From Brachyspira pilosicoli (GTDB lineage: Bacteria; Spirochaetota; Brachyspiria; Brachyspirales; Brachyspiraceae): a DNA stretch of 64,000 nucleotides. The position numbers and the translations under genes were made by a program. The DNA is taken from the NCBI RefSeq assembly GCF_036997485.1, contig NZ_JAWLPU010000002.1, positions 496,001-560,000 on the forward strand, written 5' to 3'. Position 1 is the stretch's first letter. Each line of letters starts with the position of its first letter. This document shows, piece by piece, positions 22,041 to 30,385 of this stretch. The notes under the pieces were generated by a model that saw nothing but the letters and a program-made list of their open reading frames with translations, was not told the origin of the DNA and did not search any database.

Positions 22041-22871
22041 TTATTTTGCTCTATCTATCAATGAATTAAGATATTTTTCCATATTTTCTCTATTCATAAT
22101 AAAAGGATTCTGCTCTCCTTCTTTAAGATTTGAAACTTTTTCTAAATTAGCATAACCATTATCAGCAAAAAGGTGAGCAGTTAAAGAAACAGAAGCATTT
22201 CTTGAAAGAGCTTCTTTTTTAAAATATTCTGCCGACTGCTTATATTTTTTTACTAATTCTTTATCTTTAGGAAGCCCTGTTCCTCCCCATAATACTGCAG
22301 TATATTCTTTGCCTTTATACTTTACTGGAAATATGTAAGAGCTGCATCCTGGAGTGTGCCCCGGTGTTTCCAATATAGTTATGCTTACATCTCCTAATGT
22401 TATCACATCTTTATTTTTAGCATAAATATCTACTTTAGTTTTAGGAGAACGAGGAGAATTAGCACCTGTATTTAAATTGTACATTAAATCTGTATCTGTT
22501 TTTGTAAGTACAGTTTTAGCTCCATATTTGTTTCTTAAGTAATTAGCTCCGCCATAATGATCTCCATGACCATGACTAATCAATATATATTTTAAGTTTT
22601 TAGGGTCTAATCCAAATTCTTTAATGCCATCTTCTATAAGTTTAGCATCTCTGTCGTCCCACATAGAATCTATTAAAATAAGCCCATCAGAAGTATTAAT
22701 TACCCAAGCAACAACACTCACCGTTCCTATACAGTATACATTATCAAATACTTTTGTAGGTTTTAGAGGAGTATTGTCGTTTAGATAATCCATAGGCGTT
22801 TTTTCAGCAGCAAATGCTGAACAAACAGAAATAAAAAAAATGAAAAAGACTTTCTTTAACGAATTAACCAT
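22041..22871 (-). CDS. Secreted metallo-beta-lactamase-fold hydrolase (B3-like)
   Basis: 276 aa. The signal peptide is about 1-21 (ending AFAAEK). The fold has GLILIDSMW, the zinc motif HGHGDH, TPGHTPGCSS, and a final His in SLTAHLF. This His set fits subclass B3-type metallo-beta-lactamases and their non-lactamase relatives; actual beta-lactam hydrolysis is not shown by sequence. It is preceded by AAGGAGGT and a near-consensus promoter carrying a 12-bp palindrome, and followed by a MarR gene. Confidence 0.87.
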   Translation of the reverse strand: MVNSLKKVFFIFFISVCSAFAAEKTPMDYLNDNTPLKPTKVFDNVYCIGTVSVVAWVINTSDGLILIDSMWDDRDAKLIEDGIKEFGLDPKNLKYILISHGHGDHYGGANYLRNKYGAKTVLTKTDTDLMYNLNTGANSPRSPKTKVDIYAKNKDVITLGDVSITILETPGHTPGCSSYIFPVKYKGKEYTAVLWGGTGLPKDKELVKKYKQSAEYFKKEALSRNASVSLTAHLFADNGYANLEKVSNLKEGEQNPFIMNRENMEKYLNSLIDRAK

Positions 22872-23151: not shown

Positions 23152-25008
23152 ATGAACAATAACGATAAGATAAGAATCATACCTTTAGGCGGTGTACAAG
23201 AAATAGGTATGAATATGACTGTTATAGAATATGGAAATGAAGTATTAATCATTGATTGCGGATTTATGTTTCCTAAATATCATATGCTTGGCATAGATTA
23301 TGTTATACCAGACACTTCATATTTGGAAGATAAAAACATAGTTGGATTAGTGCTAACTCATGGACATGAGGACCATATAGGAGCTATACCTCATTTCTTA
23401 AGAAAATTTCCAAATATACAAATTTATGGTTCAAGATTAACAGCAGCTTTTTTAAGGGCAAAACTCAATGATTATAAGAATGAATATAAAGATGTTGATA
23501 TTTATGAATTAGAGCCAAGAAATAAAATAAAAATAGGAATCAATTTTGATATAGAGTTTATAAGAGTTAATCATAGTATACCAGATGGTGTTGGTGTTGC
23601 CATCACTACTCCGCTTGGTGTTATAATACATACGGGAGATTTCAAAGTTGATTTAAATCCTACTACTGATAAATTTATAGACCTTTATAAGTTTGCAGAA
23701 TATGGTGAAAATGGAGTATTGCTTCTTTTGGCAGATTCTACTAACTGTCATAAGAATGGGTTTTCTATGAGTGAAAGCTTAGTACAAAATACTATGACTC
23801 CCCTATTTGCTTATGAAGATGGTATGATAATTGTTGCTGTTTTTGCAAGCAGTATAGAAAGGATACAAGATTTGGTAACTGCTGCGAAGATTAACAATAA
23901 ATATGTAGCTTTTTCTGGAAGAAGTTTACTCAAATATACAAAAATAGCACAAGAGATGGGATATTTAAATTTATATGATATAGTAATACCTATAGACAAA
24001 TTAAACAGATACCCAAGAGAAAAGATTGTATGCATAACCACAGGCACACAAGGAGAGCCTTATTCTTCTCTTTCATTGATAGCTGCTGAGGCTCATAAGC
24101 ATATAAAAGTAGAAGATGGGGATATGATTATATTTTCTTCAAGTGTTATACCTGGAAATGAGATGTCTGTTACAAGGATGATTAATAATCTCTATGATCT
24201 TGGGGCTAAAATGGTTGGGGAAGACAAAAAGCTTCTTCATGTATCTGGACATGCTTCAAGTGAAGATTTGAAACTCATGTATAGATTAGTAAAGCCCAAA
24301 TATTTTATACCTATACATGGAGAGAAAAGACATTTAATCAGCCATATAAAATTGGTAGAAGAACTTAATGGGCTTAATTCTAAAGGATTTTTACTATATA
24401 ATGGTAATGTACTTGAAATAGATAGCTCTTTAGAAGCAAAAATCGCTGAACCTATAGAGATAAGAAACATTTATGTTGATGGTAAAGGTGTTGGTGATTT
24501 GGAAGATAGCATATTCTTCGACAGAGAACAATTATCATTAAATGGAGTTGTAGTTGCTAATGTGGTGGCTAAAAAAAATAAAACTGGCAACTATGATATA
24601 AATATAGACATAGAAAGCAAAGGTTTTACATATAATGGAGCAGAAAAATCTTCTATAATAAGTAAAAATGAAGAGCTTATTAAAGAAGGCAAAAATGCTG
24701 CCACAGAAGCTGTTAGAAAATTATTAAATAGAAATAAAAGAACACCATCTACCATAAAATATGAAGTGCGCGAGGCGTTAAGAAAAAAGTTTATACAAAT
24801 AATAGGAAGAGAGCCTGTTATATTTGTATCACTTTATATAGATAATGTTTATATAGAGTTAGAGGAAAATAAGACAAATATGGAGGAAATATGTACGAGC
24901 AAAACAACCAAGAACAAGAAAACAGTACACAAGAAGAAAATAAGGAATATACAAATACCATCAAAAAAAATGAAATTAAAGAAAATAAAGAAAACAAAAG
25001 ATTTATAA
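23152..25008 (+). CDS. rnj: Ribonuclease J
   Basis: 618 aa. A metallo-beta-lactamase/beta-CASP RNase for 5'-3' exonucleolytic and endonucleolytic RNA decay. The zinc motif HGHEDH is at 70-75, followed by RVNHSIPDGVGVAI, HTGDFKVD, TTGTQGEPYSSLS, VSGHASSEDLKLM and a closing FIPIHGEKRHL. A C-terminal dimerisation domain ends near VIFVSLYIDNVYIELEEN. After that a roughly 40-residue Lys-rich tail is read from DNA that also encodes the start of SppA in another frame. It heads an operon with sppA and probably the next two genes. Confidence 0.95.
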   Translation: MNNNDKIRIIPLGGVQEIGMNMTVIEYGNEVLIIDCGFMFPKYHMLGIDYVIPDTSYLEDKNIVGLVLTHGHEDHIGAIPHFLRKFPNIQIYGSRLTAAFLRAKLNDYKNEYKDVDIYELEPRNKIKIGINFDIEFIRVNHSIPDGVGVAITTPLGVIIHTGDFKVDLNPTTDKFIDLYKFAEYGENGVLLLLADSTNCHKNGFSMSESLVQNTMTPLFAYEDGMIIVAVFASSIERIQDLVTAAKINNKYVAFSGRSLLKYTKIAQEMGYLNLYDIVIPIDKLNRYPREKIVCITTGTQGEPYSSLSLIAAEAHKHIKVEDGDMIIFSSSVIPGNEMSVTRMINNLYDLGAKMVGEDKKLLHVSGHASSEDLKLMYRLVKPKYFIPIHGEKRHLISHIKLVEELNGLNSKGFLLYNGNVLEIDSSLEAKIAEPIEIRNIYVDGKGVGDLEDSIFFDREQLSLNGVVVANVVAKKNKTGNYDINIDIESKGFTYNGAEKSSIISKNEELIKEGKNAATEAVRKLLNRNKRTPSTIKYEVREALRKKFIQIIGREPVIFVSLYIDNVYIELEENKTNMEEICTSKTTKNKKTVHKKKIRNIQIPSKKMKLKKIKKTKDL

Positions 25009-25991
25009 TATTTTCTCTATTAATAATTGTTTCTATAGTGATAGGTATTGTTTCTATATTTACTAAACCAAAAAACACAATTTCTTCTGTTATTATAAAA
25101 GGAACAACAACAAATATTAATTCTATACAAAATAAAGAAGGCATTGCAATTATAGATTTAGTTGGTGTAATATCGCATGTAGCAAGAAAAAACTCACTTG
25201 GAATAGAAGAAAAATCTGTTACAGAAAAATTAATTGATGATTTTGAATATTACATGAAAGATGATAATGTAAAAGCTATAGTATTACAAGTAGACAGCCC
25301 AGGAGGAGCTTTAACTTCTTGTGAAGAGGCATTAAAATATTTGCAGGAATTAAAGAAAAAATATCCAAAGCCAATAGTAGCTTCATTTAGAAGTATGGCA
25401 GCAAGCGGAGGATATTATATTTCCATGATAGCTGATAAAATATATGCTAATGAATCAACACTTACTGGAAGTATAGGTGTAATATCTCAGTTTGTTAATG
25501 TATCTAATTTAATGGATAAATATGGAATAAAAATGTATACAATAAAAAGCGGAAGAAATAAAGATTCATTATCTCCGTTTAGAGAGCCAAGAGAAGATGA
25601 ACTTGCTTACTGGCAGGATATGACTTATGAGTTTGTTGCTCAATTTACTAATGTGGTAGAAACTTCAAGAGGTGATAAAATAAAAGGAAACAGAGAAGAT
25701 TTATTTGATGGAAGAGTATTTAGCGGGAAAAAAGCTTTAGAAGTAGGTTTAATAGACAATATTGGCACACTTCAAGATGCTATAAAAGATGCAGCTCAAA
25801 TGGCTGATATAAAAGATGAAGAACCTTATATTATACAAAAACCAGAAAATAAAAACTTTATAAATCTAATATTATCAAGTATGCCTTTTATTTATAAACC
25901 TCAAGCTTTAATACCTTATGAGGAATTAATAAATACTAAATATATAGGTGTGCCTATGTATATATATATTCCTAATTATATTGGAGAGTGA
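24891..25991 (+). CDS. sppA: Signal peptide peptidase SppA
   Basis: 366 aa. A cytoplasmic Asn/Glu/Lys-rich head (1-36) is followed by one membrane helix (38-57) and an S49 peptidase domain. The catalytic Ser is 172 in MAASGGYY and the Lys is 224 in SGRNKD, the same 52-residue spacing as in the Bacillus subtilis enzyme. DSPGGALTSCEEA and LTGSIGV also fit. It cleaves signal peptides left in the membrane. The start at 24891 has GGAGG 6 nt upstream and is needed to include the membrane helix; it overlaps RNase J by 118 nt out of frame. Confidence 0.93.
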   Translation: MYEQNNQEQENSTQEENKEYTNTIKKNEIKENKENKRFIIFSLLIIVSIVIGIVSIFTKPKNTISSVIIKGTTTNINSIQNKEGIAIIDLVGVISHVARKNSLGIEEKSVTEKLIDDFEYYMKDDNVKAIVLQVDSPGGALTSCEEALKYLQELKKKYPKPIVASFRSMAASGGYYISMIADKIYANESTLTGSIGVISQFVNVSNLMDKYGIKMYTIKSGRNKDSLSPFREPREDELAYWQDMTYEFVAQFTNVVETSRGDKIKGNREDLFDGRVFSGKKALEVGLIDNIGTLQDAIKDAAQMADIKDEEPYIIQKPENKNFINLILSSMPFIYKPQALIPYEELINTKYIGVPMYIYIPNYIGE

Positions 25992-25992
25992 A

Positions 25993-26556
25993 ATGAAAAT
26001 ATATGAAGCTATATATTATTATATGTTATCTCCTAAAGAGGCTATAAAAAAAGAATTAAAATTTGAATATGCTTTAGTAATATTTTTAATGGCATCAATC
26101 AGTATATCGATATCTGCTTTAATAACCATTGGAAACAAAGGTTCTATATTTAAACTTTTAATATTTACTTTTGGAATATCAGCATATATTGCAATTTCTA
26201 ATATAATAAAAATAGCTATTATTAATTTAGCTACTACCCTATTAAATGTATATAATACAAACTATATTAAAAAATTTATTAAAAATTATTTTGCAATATA
26301 CGGCATATTTATTTTTATTTTACCAATAAGCTTAATTTTTATAAAAAACAGTGCCTTATTTTTTATACAAGCCATTAGCTTTATAATATTTCAAATATAC
26401 TATTTTTTTCTATCATACCATAATATAAAAACATCTTTTAATATAAATAGCAGTTCAAAAGCTTTTATGGTTTTACTTTCTCCTATTATAATAGATTATT
26501 TAACATATATATCTTTAATTATATTAATATTTGGAGTTTTTATAAATAGTTTATAA
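25993..26556 (+). CDS. Yip1-like multi-helix membrane protein
   Basis: 187 aa from ATG 25993, which has GGAGAG just upstream and lies 1 nt after the SppA stop. The first residues (MKIYEAIYYYMLSPKEAIKK) followed by about five hydrophobic helices resemble the YIP1 domain of bacterial membrane proteins. The role is unknown; co-transcription with sppA and lptF suggests envelope quality control or lipid traffic. Confidence 0.65.
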   Translation: MKIYEAIYYYMLSPKEAIKKELKFEYALVIFLMASISISISALITIGNKGSIFKLLIFTFGISAYIAISNIIKIAIINLATTLLNVYNTNYIKKFIKNYFAIYGIFIFILPISLIFIKNSALFFIQAISFIIFQIYYFFLSYHNIKTSFNINSSSKAFMVLLSPIIIDYLTYISLIILIFGVFINSL

Positions 26557-26565
26557 TTTATTGTT

Positions 26566-27861
26566 ATGAAAAAAATAAAGAAATATATTATATTAGAAGC
26601 TATAGGTCCTTTTATAGCAGGTGTATTATTTTTTACTTTCATATTTGTAATACAACTTTTACCAGAATTATTTAAGCTTATATTAAATAATGGTGCTCCA
26701 ATATCTACTTCTTTAGAAATATTTGTTTATATGCTTCCATTCAACGTGGCAATTACTATACCAATGTCTATACTAATGGCAGGAATTATGGGGTATGGAA
26801 GACTTTCTTCTGACAATGAGATAATTGTAATGCGTGCTTTAGGTTTCTCTCACATGAGAATATATGCCCCTATTATAATACTTGGTTTTTTTACATTTTT
26901 ATTTTCTTTATTTTTTAACAATGTTGTTATGACAGAAGCAAATTATAGATATAGAGCTTTATTTTCTTATATAATCAATATAAGACCTTCTATTGCGGTT
27001 GGAAAATTAGAGTTTGCCTATATATCTGACATTAATTTATCTATTGGAGCATATTATAGTGATAATAGCGGCATGTCTAATGTTGTTATATACGATGGAA
27101 ATTCTCAGGCTAGAAGGATAATTACTGCTAAAACTGGAAAATGGAAAAACAATGAGGCCAATTCTAAAGTTATTACTTTAACTTTATATGATGGAATAGT
27201 TCAAGAGATGCCTGTATATGGTTTTGTAACTAATGATTTTACAGCATTTGATGCCATGGATATTAATATAGTTAGAAATGTAAGTAAATTAAATGACCAT
27301 GAAAGAGGGCTCAGAGAAATTCCTGCTTGGAAGATAAGAAAAAAAATCAATGATTCAATGTCCAACTCGCTTCAAACAGTAACCAATCAAATAAGTAATA
27401 TGATAGTTACCGCCTATTCTAATTCATTTATAACCAATATAGATGGCACAACAAATATAATACTAACAAATGCTAATATATCTTTTTCATCGTTTTCAAA
27501 CACTTATGTTACAACAAACTCTGTAGAATTAGATAAATTAATAGAAACAACCAAAAAAGAAGCCGTACCGTATTTTTATTATGTAGAGTTTCATAAGTTT
27601 ATATCAATACCAGCAGCATGTTTATTTATGGTATTTATTGGGGCACCTTTGGGAATAGTGGGTAAAAGAAGCGGAAGGGGATTTGGATTTGGTCTTTCTG
27701 TAATAGTTGTAGTAATATATTATATTCTTATCACTGTAGCAGAAATTATAGCAGGAAATAGGACTGTACCTGGTTTTGTTGCTATGTGGTTTCCTAATAT
27801 AGTACTGGCTGCTATAGGGGCTTTCCTTATGATACGTTCATTCTTTAGTAAAGGAAAATAA
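26566..27861 (+). CDS. lptF: LptF/LptG family permease
   Basis: 431 aa. Six-helix YjgP/YjgQ architecture: three N-terminal helices, a jellyroll periplasmic domain (about 120-330), and three C-terminal helices. The conserved coupling stretch is MAGIMGYGRLSSDNEIIVMRALGFSHMRIYAPI, and PLGIVGKRSGRGFGFGLS opens the C-terminal block. LptFG with LptB lifts lipopolysaccharide-like molecules from the inner membrane. Its partner and the ATPase are not in the window. LptF versus LptG cannot be decided by eye. No clear ribosome-binding site precedes the ATG, 9 nt after the Yip1-like gene. Confidence 0.88.
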   Translation: MKKIKKYIILEAIGPFIAGVLFFTFIFVIQLLPELFKLILNNGAPISTSLEIFVYMLPFNVAITIPMSILMAGIMGYGRLSSDNEIIVMRALGFSHMRIYAPIIILGFFTFLFSLFFNNVVMTEANYRYRALFSYIINIRPSIAVGKLEFAYISDINLSIGAYYSDNSGMSNVVIYDGNSQARRIITAKTGKWKNNEANSKVITLTLYDGIVQEMPVYGFVTNDFTAFDAMDINIVRNVSKLNDHERGLREIPAWKIRKKINDSMSNSLQTVTNQISNMIVTAYSNSFITNIDGTTNIILTNANISFSSFSNTYVTTNSVELDKLIETTKKEAVPYFYYVEFHKFISIPAACLFMVFIGAPLGIVGKRSGRGFGFGLSVIVVVIYYILITVAEIIAGNRTVPGFVAMWFPNIVLAAIGAFLMIRSFFSKGK

Positions 27862-28448: not shown

Positions 28449-29150
28449 ATGCTTAAAGATATATTTATAGATATAAAAAATAATAAAAAAGAGTGGCTTA
28501 AAAGTAAAAAAGGTAATGAATTTGAAGACCGATTTGAAGCTTCACTAAAACGTTATGGCTTTAATAGAAGAGTAAAAGAAGATATTAACGACATACTCTC
28601 TTCTATTAAAAAAAATATTATAGATAAGAAAAGTGATTTATTGCTCGATAATACTTATGCAGTTAAAGATAAAAGCATGGAAAACTGTTTTGTATGCCAG
28701 CCTTATGGAAGTCAGGAATTCCCAGATTTTCTAATATTTGCAAATAAAAAAATTATATCTATAGAAATAAAATATAGCAGCGGAAAATCTTCAAAACCTA
28801 TGTGGAATAGTAATTTACCTAAAGCTAATGCTATTTACATATTTGGTTCTTATGGACTTTCTGACGTTACATTTTTCTTAGGAAGAGATGTGCTTAGCAT
28901 GGAAGAGAGAATAGAGCTTATAGGTTTTTTTGAAAATAATGCTAAAAGATTAGAAGAAGAATTTAGAAAAGAAATGAGAAATAAATTAGATAATATAAAT
29001 TATAAATTTGATAGAGGATTTGATGTTTATATTAGAACAGCTTATGAACAAAATAAAAACATAAATAAAGATGCTAATGTAGATTATTTTTCTCATATAG
29101 ATAGAATAAAATGTGAAGAAAATGTTATAGGATTTTGTGAGAGTTTATAA
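28449..29150 (+). CDS. Probable type II restriction endonuclease
   Basis: 233 aa. A PD-(D/E)XK-type core is visible: QEFPDFLIFANKKIISIEIKYSSG, with PD followed by EIK. The N-terminal part is helical and basic, and the C-terminus has charged helices (RLEEEFRKEMRNKL). Immediate linkage to a DNA adenine methyltransferase, 17 nt downstream on the same strand, supports the call. The recognition site cannot be predicted. No ribosome-binding site precedes the ATG. Flanking repeats suggest horizontal acquisition. Confidence 0.78.
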   Translation: MLKDIFIDIKNNKKEWLKSKKGNEFEDRFEASLKRYGFNRRVKEDINDILSSIKKNIIDKKSDLLLDNTYAVKDKSMENCFVCQPYGSQEFPDFLIFANKKIISIEIKYSSGKSSKPMWNSNLPKANAIYIFGSYGLSDVTFFLGRDVLSMEERIELIGFFENNAKRLEEEFRKEMRNKLDNINYKFDRGFDVYIRTAYEQNKNINKDANVDYFSHIDRIKCEENVIGFCESL

Positions 29151-29167
29151 GAGAGATAAAAAGTATA

Positions 29168-30385
29168 ATGCAAAAAGAGTACACAAAAGAAAGCATAGAT
29201 TATTTAAAAAATACTAATATAGAAAAAAGAAAAAAATTAGGTCAATATTTCACACCTAAAACTATAAGGGATTTGCTTTTAAAAAAATTAACAGATATAT
29301 CATCAAAAAAAGATAATGTAAAAATATTAGACCCAGCCTGCGGAAGCGGAGAGTTTCTTTTATCTTGCAACGAATACTTTAATAATCCAAAACTCTATGG
29401 ATTTGACATTGATGATGAGTTAATTAATATATCTAAAAAACTTATAAAAAATGCTGATATAAAATGTATAGATACTCTAAAATTAAACATTGATAACTCT
29501 ATTAAATATGACTATGTTATAGGGAATCCCCCATATTTTGAGTTTAAATTAGATAAAGAACAAAAAACAAGATTTAAAGATATCATAAATGGAAGAGTTA
29601 ATATATTTTCATTATTTATCAAAATAGGATTAGAACTTCTTAATGAGGAAGGATATTTAGCTTATGTTATACCTCCTTCAATGAATAATGGAGCATTCTT
29701 TTCTAAATTGAGAGAATATATAATAAGTAATAGCAGCATAGAATATTTACACATAATAGAAGGCTCTGATAAGTTTTATATGGCAAATCAGAAAGTAATG
29801 CTTTTAATATTAAAAAAAACGAATACACAAAAAAACAAAAAATATATATTTGAAAAAAACGGCATTACAATATTTACAGAAAATAAATTATTTTTAAATA
29901 AAGCATACAAAGATACCATTAGTTTAAGAGAAATAGGATACTGTGTAAAAACAGGAAGCATAGCATGGAATTTCAACAAAGATAAATTAACTAATGATAA
30001 AAATAATGCTATACCTTTAATATATTCTTCTAATATAGTGGATGGAAAAATTATTATACCAAATAAAAGAGAATTACAATATATAAAAAATATTTCAGAG
30101 GATTTAATAATAAGAGAAGAGGTAATAGCAGTTAATAGAATAACGGGTTCTAATAAAAGCATTAATATAAAATCAGCAATAGTAAAAGAAAAAGAGTTTG
30201 TATGCGAGAATCATGTTAATGTTATATATCAGTTAAAAAATTATAATAAAAACTACTCTTTAGAATATATCTATAATGCTTTAAATGACGAAAACAATAT
30301 AAAAACATTAAGCCTTATAACAGGAAATACTCAAATCTCTAAAACAGAATTAGAAAGGCTTCTTCCCATAAAAGTTAAAAGATGA
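29168..30385 (+). CDS. DNA adenine-N6 methyltransferase
   Basis: 405 aa. SAM-binding motif I is ILDPACGSGEFLLSC (about residues 55-69) and catalytic motif IV is YVIGNPPYFEF. Motif I preceding IV and an NPPY motif place it in the gamma class of N6-adenine methyltransferases, with a C-terminal target recognition region. It begins with KLGQYFTP, typical of this class. It would protect host DNA from the endonuclease encoded just upstream. The stop is followed within 8 nt by repeat copy C. Confidence 0.92.
   Translation: MQKEYTKESIDYLKNTNIEKRKKLGQYFTPKTIRDLLLKKLTDISSKKDNVKILDPACGSGEFLLSCNEYFNNPKLYGFDIDDELINISKKLIKNADIKCIDTLKLNIDNSIKYDYVIGNPPYFEFKLDKEQKTRFKDIINGRVNIFSLFIKIGLELLNEEGYLAYVIPPSMNNGAFFSKLREYIISNSSIEYLHIIEGSDKFYMANQKVMLLILKKTNTQKNKKYIFEKNGITIFTENKLFLNKAYKDTISLREIGYCVKTGSIAWNFNKDKLTNDKNNAIPLIYSSNIVDGKIIIPNKRELQYIKNISEDLIIREEVIAVNRITGSNKSINIKSAIVKEKEFVCENHVNVIYQLKNYNKNYSLEYIYNALNDENNIKTLSLITGNTQISKTELERLLPIKVKR

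Follow-up and report, generated by a model that had tools for sequence, protein, structure and literature searches.

A long same-strand overlap of rnj and sppA in Brachyspira and its relatives, in which both reading frames appear to be preserved by natural selection

The rnj–sppA locus

The window (the whole 64,000-nucleotide stretch of Brachyspira pilosicoli DNA that was analysed) contains two co-directional genes, rnj and sppA, the first of which runs out of frame into the second. The features of the pair are as follows.

23152..25008, + strand: rnj, RNase J family ribonuclease, 618 aa, stop TAA at 25006-25008
24847..24891, + strand: fast-evolving linker that follows the C-terminal domain of RNase J, about residues 566-580
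24882..24886, + strand: GGAGG Shine-Dalgarno (SD) of sppA, within the rnj coding sequence
24891..25991, + strand: sppA, membrane-anchored signal peptide peptidase (S49), 366 aa
24891..25008, + strand: dual-coding overlap, 118 nt, SppA in the -1 frame relative to RNase J
24892..25005, + strand: RNase J tail, residues C581-L618, 38 residues, net charge +15
SppA residues 1-38: SppA head, hydrophilic and presumably cytosolic
25005..25061, + strand: SppA membrane helix, the best 19-residue hydropathy window, from residue 39

RNase J was identified by a full-length match to TIGR00649 (527.9 bits, curated cut-off 400, residues 7-559), and the Pfam domain RNase_J_C covers residues 457-559. SppA was assigned by a TIGR00706 match above the cut-off (187.2 bits against 155.45) together with an N-terminal membrane helix (hydropathy 3.11 from residue 39 in the window protein); Peptidase_S49 was also matched. 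The coordinates of the two open reading frames bear out the out-of-frame overlap of 118 nt described in the first-pass annotation, and the RNase J stop coincides with the first codon of the SppA membrane helix. The RNase J frame of the window's genome has no internal stop; the protein is 97% identical to that of B. pilosicoli T010 over all 618 residues, and is 617-619 aa long in four other genomes of the B. pilosicoli group. Stops interrupt the third phase of the overlap DNA in 26 of the 27 genomes with an overlap. On the opposite strand an open reading frame of 108 aa (24818-25144, -) lies across the overlap, probably a by-product of its composition.

The first-pass annotation had placed the end of the RNase J domains near codon 575, with an extension of about 40 codons. 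The extension exists, but the folded part ends nearer to residue 559-564 (the Pfam domain ends at 559, the last predicted strand at 564), and the extension comes to about 54-59 residues, 38 of which are wholly dual-coded. A structure prediction from 15 sequences gave a model that was poor throughout (mean pLDDT 52.7; 297 of 618 residues below 50), in which the tail is coil with pLDDT of about 24-28 and no structural element is predicted past residue 564.

Neither in the window nor in the 27 other genomes checked is there an ATG, GTG or TTG between the SppA start and the membrane helix, and moving the sppA start beyond the RNase J stop would cost 49 codons. In the 28 genomes compared, the sppA start is preceded by a GGAGG- or GAGGA/AAGGAG-like stretch. 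With no alternative start codon and GGAGG upstream, the position of the SppA start is predicted to be forced, in agreement with the earlier proposal that it is fixed by GGAGG and the membrane helix.

Distribution and origin of the overlap

Among 26 Brachyspira genomes searched, RNase J was matched in 25, the remaining one (G003) being a fragmented assembly of 88% completeness. Comparison of the position of the RNase J stop in relatives, which the first-pass annotation had suggested as a check, found the RNase J phase open from the sppA start to the membrane helix in 24 of these 25, with overlaps of 106, 109, 112, 118 or 133 nt, and an overlap in all three genomes of two sister genera (100, 130 and 79 nt), where SppA identity is only 43-49%. 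All overlap lengths are 1 modulo 3, so the relative frame has never changed. As in a true overlapping pair, each of the two open reading frames encodes a known, conserved protein, and relatives have retained the overlap.

The sole exception within Brachyspira is G001, in which RNase J has about 578 codons and ends 16 nt before sppA; the former RNase J phase inside sppA is still readable for 73 nt. This genome, the only one without an overlap among the 28 Brachyspiraceae genomes with RNase J, also lacks the tail, and a basic tail without an overlap was seen in none of the 28. In two of the 24 overlap-bearing Brachyspira genomes the tail phase is intact and the RNase J frame is broken upstream, in the enzyme part: in Brachyspira sp. 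G79 (G015, locus L040) a stop follows 526 codons with the tail phase still open downstream, and in G023 (L035) there is an internal TAA with the overlap intact. These interruptions are either assembly errors or real lesions. G023 also has a second RNase J homologue, 40% identical, on a contig of 4.5 kb (L042, G023:C153), which is possibly contamination.

In the other family of the same order (two genomes) RNase J is about 570 aa long and has no tail, and at both of these outgroup loci an SppA match was absent from the stretch covered around rnj. In a tree built from 28 RNase J core proteins, with G003, G015 and G023 left out, two changes are needed to explain the overlap, apparently a single gain on the stem of the family and a single loss nested within it, in G001. 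The exact position of G001 has support of 86/91; it lies within the Brachyspira clade (100/99), itself within the overlap-bearing family. This distribution indicates that the overlap is ancestral to the family holding Brachyspira and not a recent local accident. The earlier suggestion that loss of an ancestral stop had created a new tail agrees with the tail-less outgroup RNase J in that the tail is derived; as a recent change in this lineage it does not stand, because the overlap is ancestral to the family. The overlap may have arisen either by stop loss or by a rearrangement that placed sppA behind rnj. Outside the order, 55 searched genomes matched RNase J at E 1e-60 or better, with open frames of mostly 554-592 aa; five frames, compared by length only, have 636-664 aa (G040, G103, G171, G215 and G218).

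Composition of the tail and position of its stop

The very basic RNase J tail noted in the first-pass annotation, encoded by the DNA of the SppA head in another frame, is real, and its charge is +15 to +17 across the 24 Brachyspira genomes. The SppA head is rich in E, K, N and Q, whose codons read one base later give K, R, N, T and S. In 12 Brachyspira representatives, where the observed tail charge is +15 to +17, random synonymous recoding of the head yielded means of +14.5 to +17.1; the tails of G026, G027 and G028 are less basic than the mean recoding (8, 8 and 6 against 11.0, 9.6 and 7.0). Because the composition of the SppA head reproduces the charge on recoding, the basic character is a compositional by-product, and we rejected it as a sign of selection.

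The end of the tail has a similarly simple basis. For a stop to arise in the RNase J phase, a suitable base must follow an L, I, V or M codon whose last two letters are TA or TG, and such codons are plentiful in the SppA membrane helix. The RNase J frame closes at the first helix codons because an L or I codon ending in TA creates a stop when the next base is A or G. The distance between the RNase J stop and the start of the SppA helix is at most one residue in 25 of 27 overlap genomes; in G026 and G028 the stop is 3 and 6 residues off. With the stop set by the helix codons, overlap length equals SppA head length. As a measure of chance, the distance to a stop in the same phase, counted from SppA body codons of two genomes, had a median of 4-4.5 and a maximum of 25-30 codons.

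The number of stop-forming codons in the overlap (0/44 against 999/1523) was discarded as evidence, because the first stop is what defines the end of the overlap and the count must be zero. When hydropathy is used to delimit the head, the count is 15/55 against 1011/1539, and 4/15 in ten lineage representatives (P = 0.0024). Isoleucine codons in the overlap of the 27 genomes are 39 ATC, 7 ATT and 1 ATA, compared with 26, 290 and 725 in the rest of sppA. Before A or G, ATA gives a stop in the RNase J phase, ATT there gives Leu and ATC gives Ser, and the informative part of the codon evidence is the use of ATC over ATT. This ratio is 12:1 in the hydropathy-set heads of the ten lineage representatives against 27:292 in the bodies of the 27 genomes (Fisher P = 1.5e-11). 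Among the opening 36 codons of the 44 other ORFs of at least 150 aa in the window there are 8 ATC, 60 ATT and 120 ATA, with no ATC excess (8/188).

Selection in both frames

Selection was compared in 22 genomes in four groups, P (B. pilosicoli, five genomes), H (12 species), A and B; G014, G019, G026, G027 and G028 were excluded because of indels or divergence. Pairwise differences were sorted by their effect on both frames, and omega was taken as NN/NS. Pooled omega was 0.19 in the RNase J frame (95% interval 0.07-0.39) and 0.19 in the SppA frame (0.07-0.45), intervals that are too narrow because the pairwise comparisons share branches. By group, the RNase J omega was 0.35 (0.11-1.00) in P, 0.17 (0.04-0.40) in H, 0.18 (0.01-5.69) in A and 0.29 (0.08-0.83) in B. 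Control point values were 1.21 for the third phase of the overlap DNA, 0.82 for the rest of SppA and 1.14 and 1.09 for its hydrophilic stretches.

Differences that are silent in SppA and change RNase J occurred at 0.40 of the neutral rate when pooled (H 0.35, A 0.41, B 0.73 (0.27-1.38)) and at 0.92 (0.40-1.55) in group P. Those that change SppA and are silent in RNase J reached 0.40 of neutral in the overlap and 0.14 in the rest, which shows the head to be under less constraint than the remainder of SppA. Differences silent in both frames, of which only five were expected, form a class too small to compare. In group H the overlap has an SppA-frame synonymous difference of 41/1357, lower than in any of the 297 stretches of equal length, and the remainder of sppA one of 1423/7597; the overlap ranked 31 of 289 in P, 3 of 294 in A and 99 of 297 in B. 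In three of the four groups this difference is lower in the second half of the overlap than in the first. The RNase J-frame synonymous difference of group B was higher in the overlap (0.30) than in the core (0.144; 20 comparisons).

At the protein level, the tail of group H differs at 268/2310 residues (0.116) and the SppA head, encoded by the same DNA, at 482/2310 (0.209). The corresponding values are 67/380 and 79/380 in P, and 9/36 and 13/36 in B; in group A the tail (8/102) lies slightly above the head (6/102). The linker is more variable than the tail in all four groups (amino acid difference 0.22-0.49; 0.444 in H, from 10 of the 12 genomes). Variable columns in group H are concentrated at RNase J third positions (15/37, against 4/36 and 7/36 at the others), as they are in B (10/38, against 5/37 and 6/37). 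No such excess was found in P (9/40, 7/39 and 8/39 by SppA position) or in A.

Purifying selection in both frames was thus found in the pooled data and is clear in group H, but not in P or A taken alone. Of the groups, H with its 12 species gives the strongest signal, and P, to which the window belongs, a weaker one. Taken as sequence statistics, the comparisons show purifying selection to have kept the tail and both the RNase J and SppA frames, mainly on the evidence of group H, and natural selection appears to be preserving both readings.

Proposed explanation and alternatives

We propose that the RNase J frame was extended into the hydrophilic SppA head on the family stem. Read in this phase, the head would have supplied an open, Lys-rich frame that closes roughly where the codons of the membrane helix begin, and the tail would afterwards have been retained by purifying selection on both RNase J and SppA. 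Translation of sppA would begin at its own SD within rnj during rnj translation; the anatomy of this site is plain and its use we infer. We give a probability of about 0.75 to this reading as a whole: a genuine and old same-strand dual-coding overlap, with a tail kept by selection and likely polycationic, and with SppA made from its own SD.

Several features would equally be expected if the tail were a neutral by-product, the SppA head being constrained, its few aliphatic residues leaving the phase open and RNase J tolerating extra residues. The charge and the stop at the helix follow mechanically from SppA composition, the tail was lost in G001, and in group P changes silent in SppA that alter RNase J run close to the neutral rate (0.92). 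The pooled RNase J-phase omega of 0.19, with controls near 1, argues against it, as do the preference for ATC (Ser in RNase J) over ATA (often a stop) or ATT (Leu), the pooled rate of 0.40 for changes that RNase J alone would register, and an SppA head more variable than the tail in three of the four groups; we consider it unlikely. Constraint on the nucleotides themselves (an sppA initiation region, an RNA structure or an RNA-protein site) would conserve the DNA and not the tail protein. It would account for the pooled suppression of changes silent in SppA and for the most uniform stretch beginning at the sppA ATG in non-pilosicoli Brachyspira. The concentration of variable columns at RNase J third positions in H and B, though not in P and A, speaks for selection on the protein instead, the starts of other genes show no ATC excess, and synonymous difference falls in the second half of the overlap in three of four groups, which makes such a constraint distinctly improbable.

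The case for an artefact (a sequencing frameshift, a lost stop or a wrong start) comes from the available text of a survey by Palleja and others, in which none of 715 annotated co-directional overlaps of more than 60 bp in 338 genomes was judged real (PMC2478687). Against the same architecture in 27 genomes of three genera, an SppA with no alternative start before the helix and constraint in both frames, an artefact is hardly credible here. We give just as little weight to a -1 ribosomal frameshift on A-rich heptamers of the tail that would fuse RNase J to SppA and so anchor RNase J in the membrane. SppA does lie in the -1 frame, and 20 of 27 tails contain X XXY YYZ heptamers in the RNase J frame, but random recoding predicts one with P 0.92-1.00 per tail and 19 of the 24 tails tested had one; G008, G010, G014, G015, G017, G027 and G028 have none. 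A programmed -1 site was rejected, as the slippery heptamer is not conserved beyond this expectation.

In nucleases, a disordered basic tail commonly strengthens binding to RNA. If the RNase J tail is functional, there is about an even chance that it serves as a flexible polycation with which RNase J binds RNA, ribosomes or other polyanions more tightly. It is not strictly required, since G001 lives without it. RNase Y was found above the cut-off in 30 of 31 genomes of the order, and no RNase E/G match reached the cut-off in the window's genome, so RNA decay presumably follows the Bacillus pattern, RNase J being the 5' exonuclease. A tail that substitutes for a missing RNase Y was rejected, given the presence of RNase Y in those genomes. 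It is very doubtful that the Lys-rich tail docks on the Glu-rich N-terminal part of the SppA head and holds RNase J at the membrane; if it did, the overlap would encode, translate side by side and co-evolve a charge-complementary dock.

Comparison with known overlaps

Long same-strand overlaps in bacteria are usually dismissed as annotation errors; that of rnj and sppA is family-wide and about twice the 60 bp limit. With 79-133 nt it passes the criterion of Palleja and others, conservation in orthologues, as far as the available text gives it. The longest overlap described there as real is holD-rimI of enterobacteria, at up to 56 bp (PMC2478687). Like rnj-sppA it is co-directional and terminal, places a C-terminus over an N-terminus and is conserved in the family with a length that varies between genera. 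It measures 32-56 bp (PMC2478687), whereas rnj-sppA has 79-133 nt, a measure of selection for each frame and, as its product, a basic tail of low complexity.

In the available account of Thermus rnpA-rpmH (PMC9841429), a same-strand, out-of-frame overlap likewise involves a ribonuclease protein. There rpmH is nested in rnpA and the two starts share one SD (PMC9841429); rnj-sppA, in contrast, is terminal and sppA has its own SD. Neutral models of unidirectional overlaps, as far as their available texts go (PMC3887535, PMC2542354), share with our proposal the idea that the upstream gene is elongated at its 3' end after loss of its stop. They need no selection (PMC3887535, PMC2542354), whereas the elongated part of rnj has measured constraint. 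RNase J of M. tuberculosis has the same beta-lactamase, beta-CASP and C-terminal domains (PMC10119312); its C-terminal domain comprises residues 471-553, and the available text mentions no basic tail (PMC10119312). The available part of the B. hyodysenteriae genome paper reports 140 overlapping pairs and contains no word beginning with RNase or ribonuclease. Among the matches listed in the literature searched, no title describing the rnj-sppA overlap was found.

What sets rnj-sppA apart is an overlap that is long, terminal, on the same strand and doubly constrained, nested or shared-start cases being already known. Selection can be measured separately on each frame, and a doubly preserved reading of this kind is rare for bacteria. 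The pair suggests a rule by which an upstream gene that enters the hydrophilic head of a membrane protein is halted by the helix codons, which sets the overlap length. It also presents, on an enzyme central to RNA decay, a new part that can be put to the test; the spirochaete family concerned includes gut pathogens of animals and humans.

Neighbouring genes

A metallo-beta-lactamase-fold protein with a hydrophobic N-terminus (22041-22871, -) adjoins rnj on the opposite strand; its best match, subclass B3 (149.6 bits), lies below the curated cut-off of 240. Downstream, the called GTG start of an open reading frame at 25948-26556 (+), for which there is no NCBIfam match, would overlap sppA by 44 nt, and the ATG at 25993, just past the sppA stop, is the likelier start. 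It is followed at 26566 by an LptF/LptG-like permease (match below the cut-off). At 28449-30385 (+), a 233-aa protein without an NCBIfam match precedes a type II-like adenine methyltransferase (TIGR02987, 69.7 bits, below the cut-off), and the two are possibly a restriction-modification pair.
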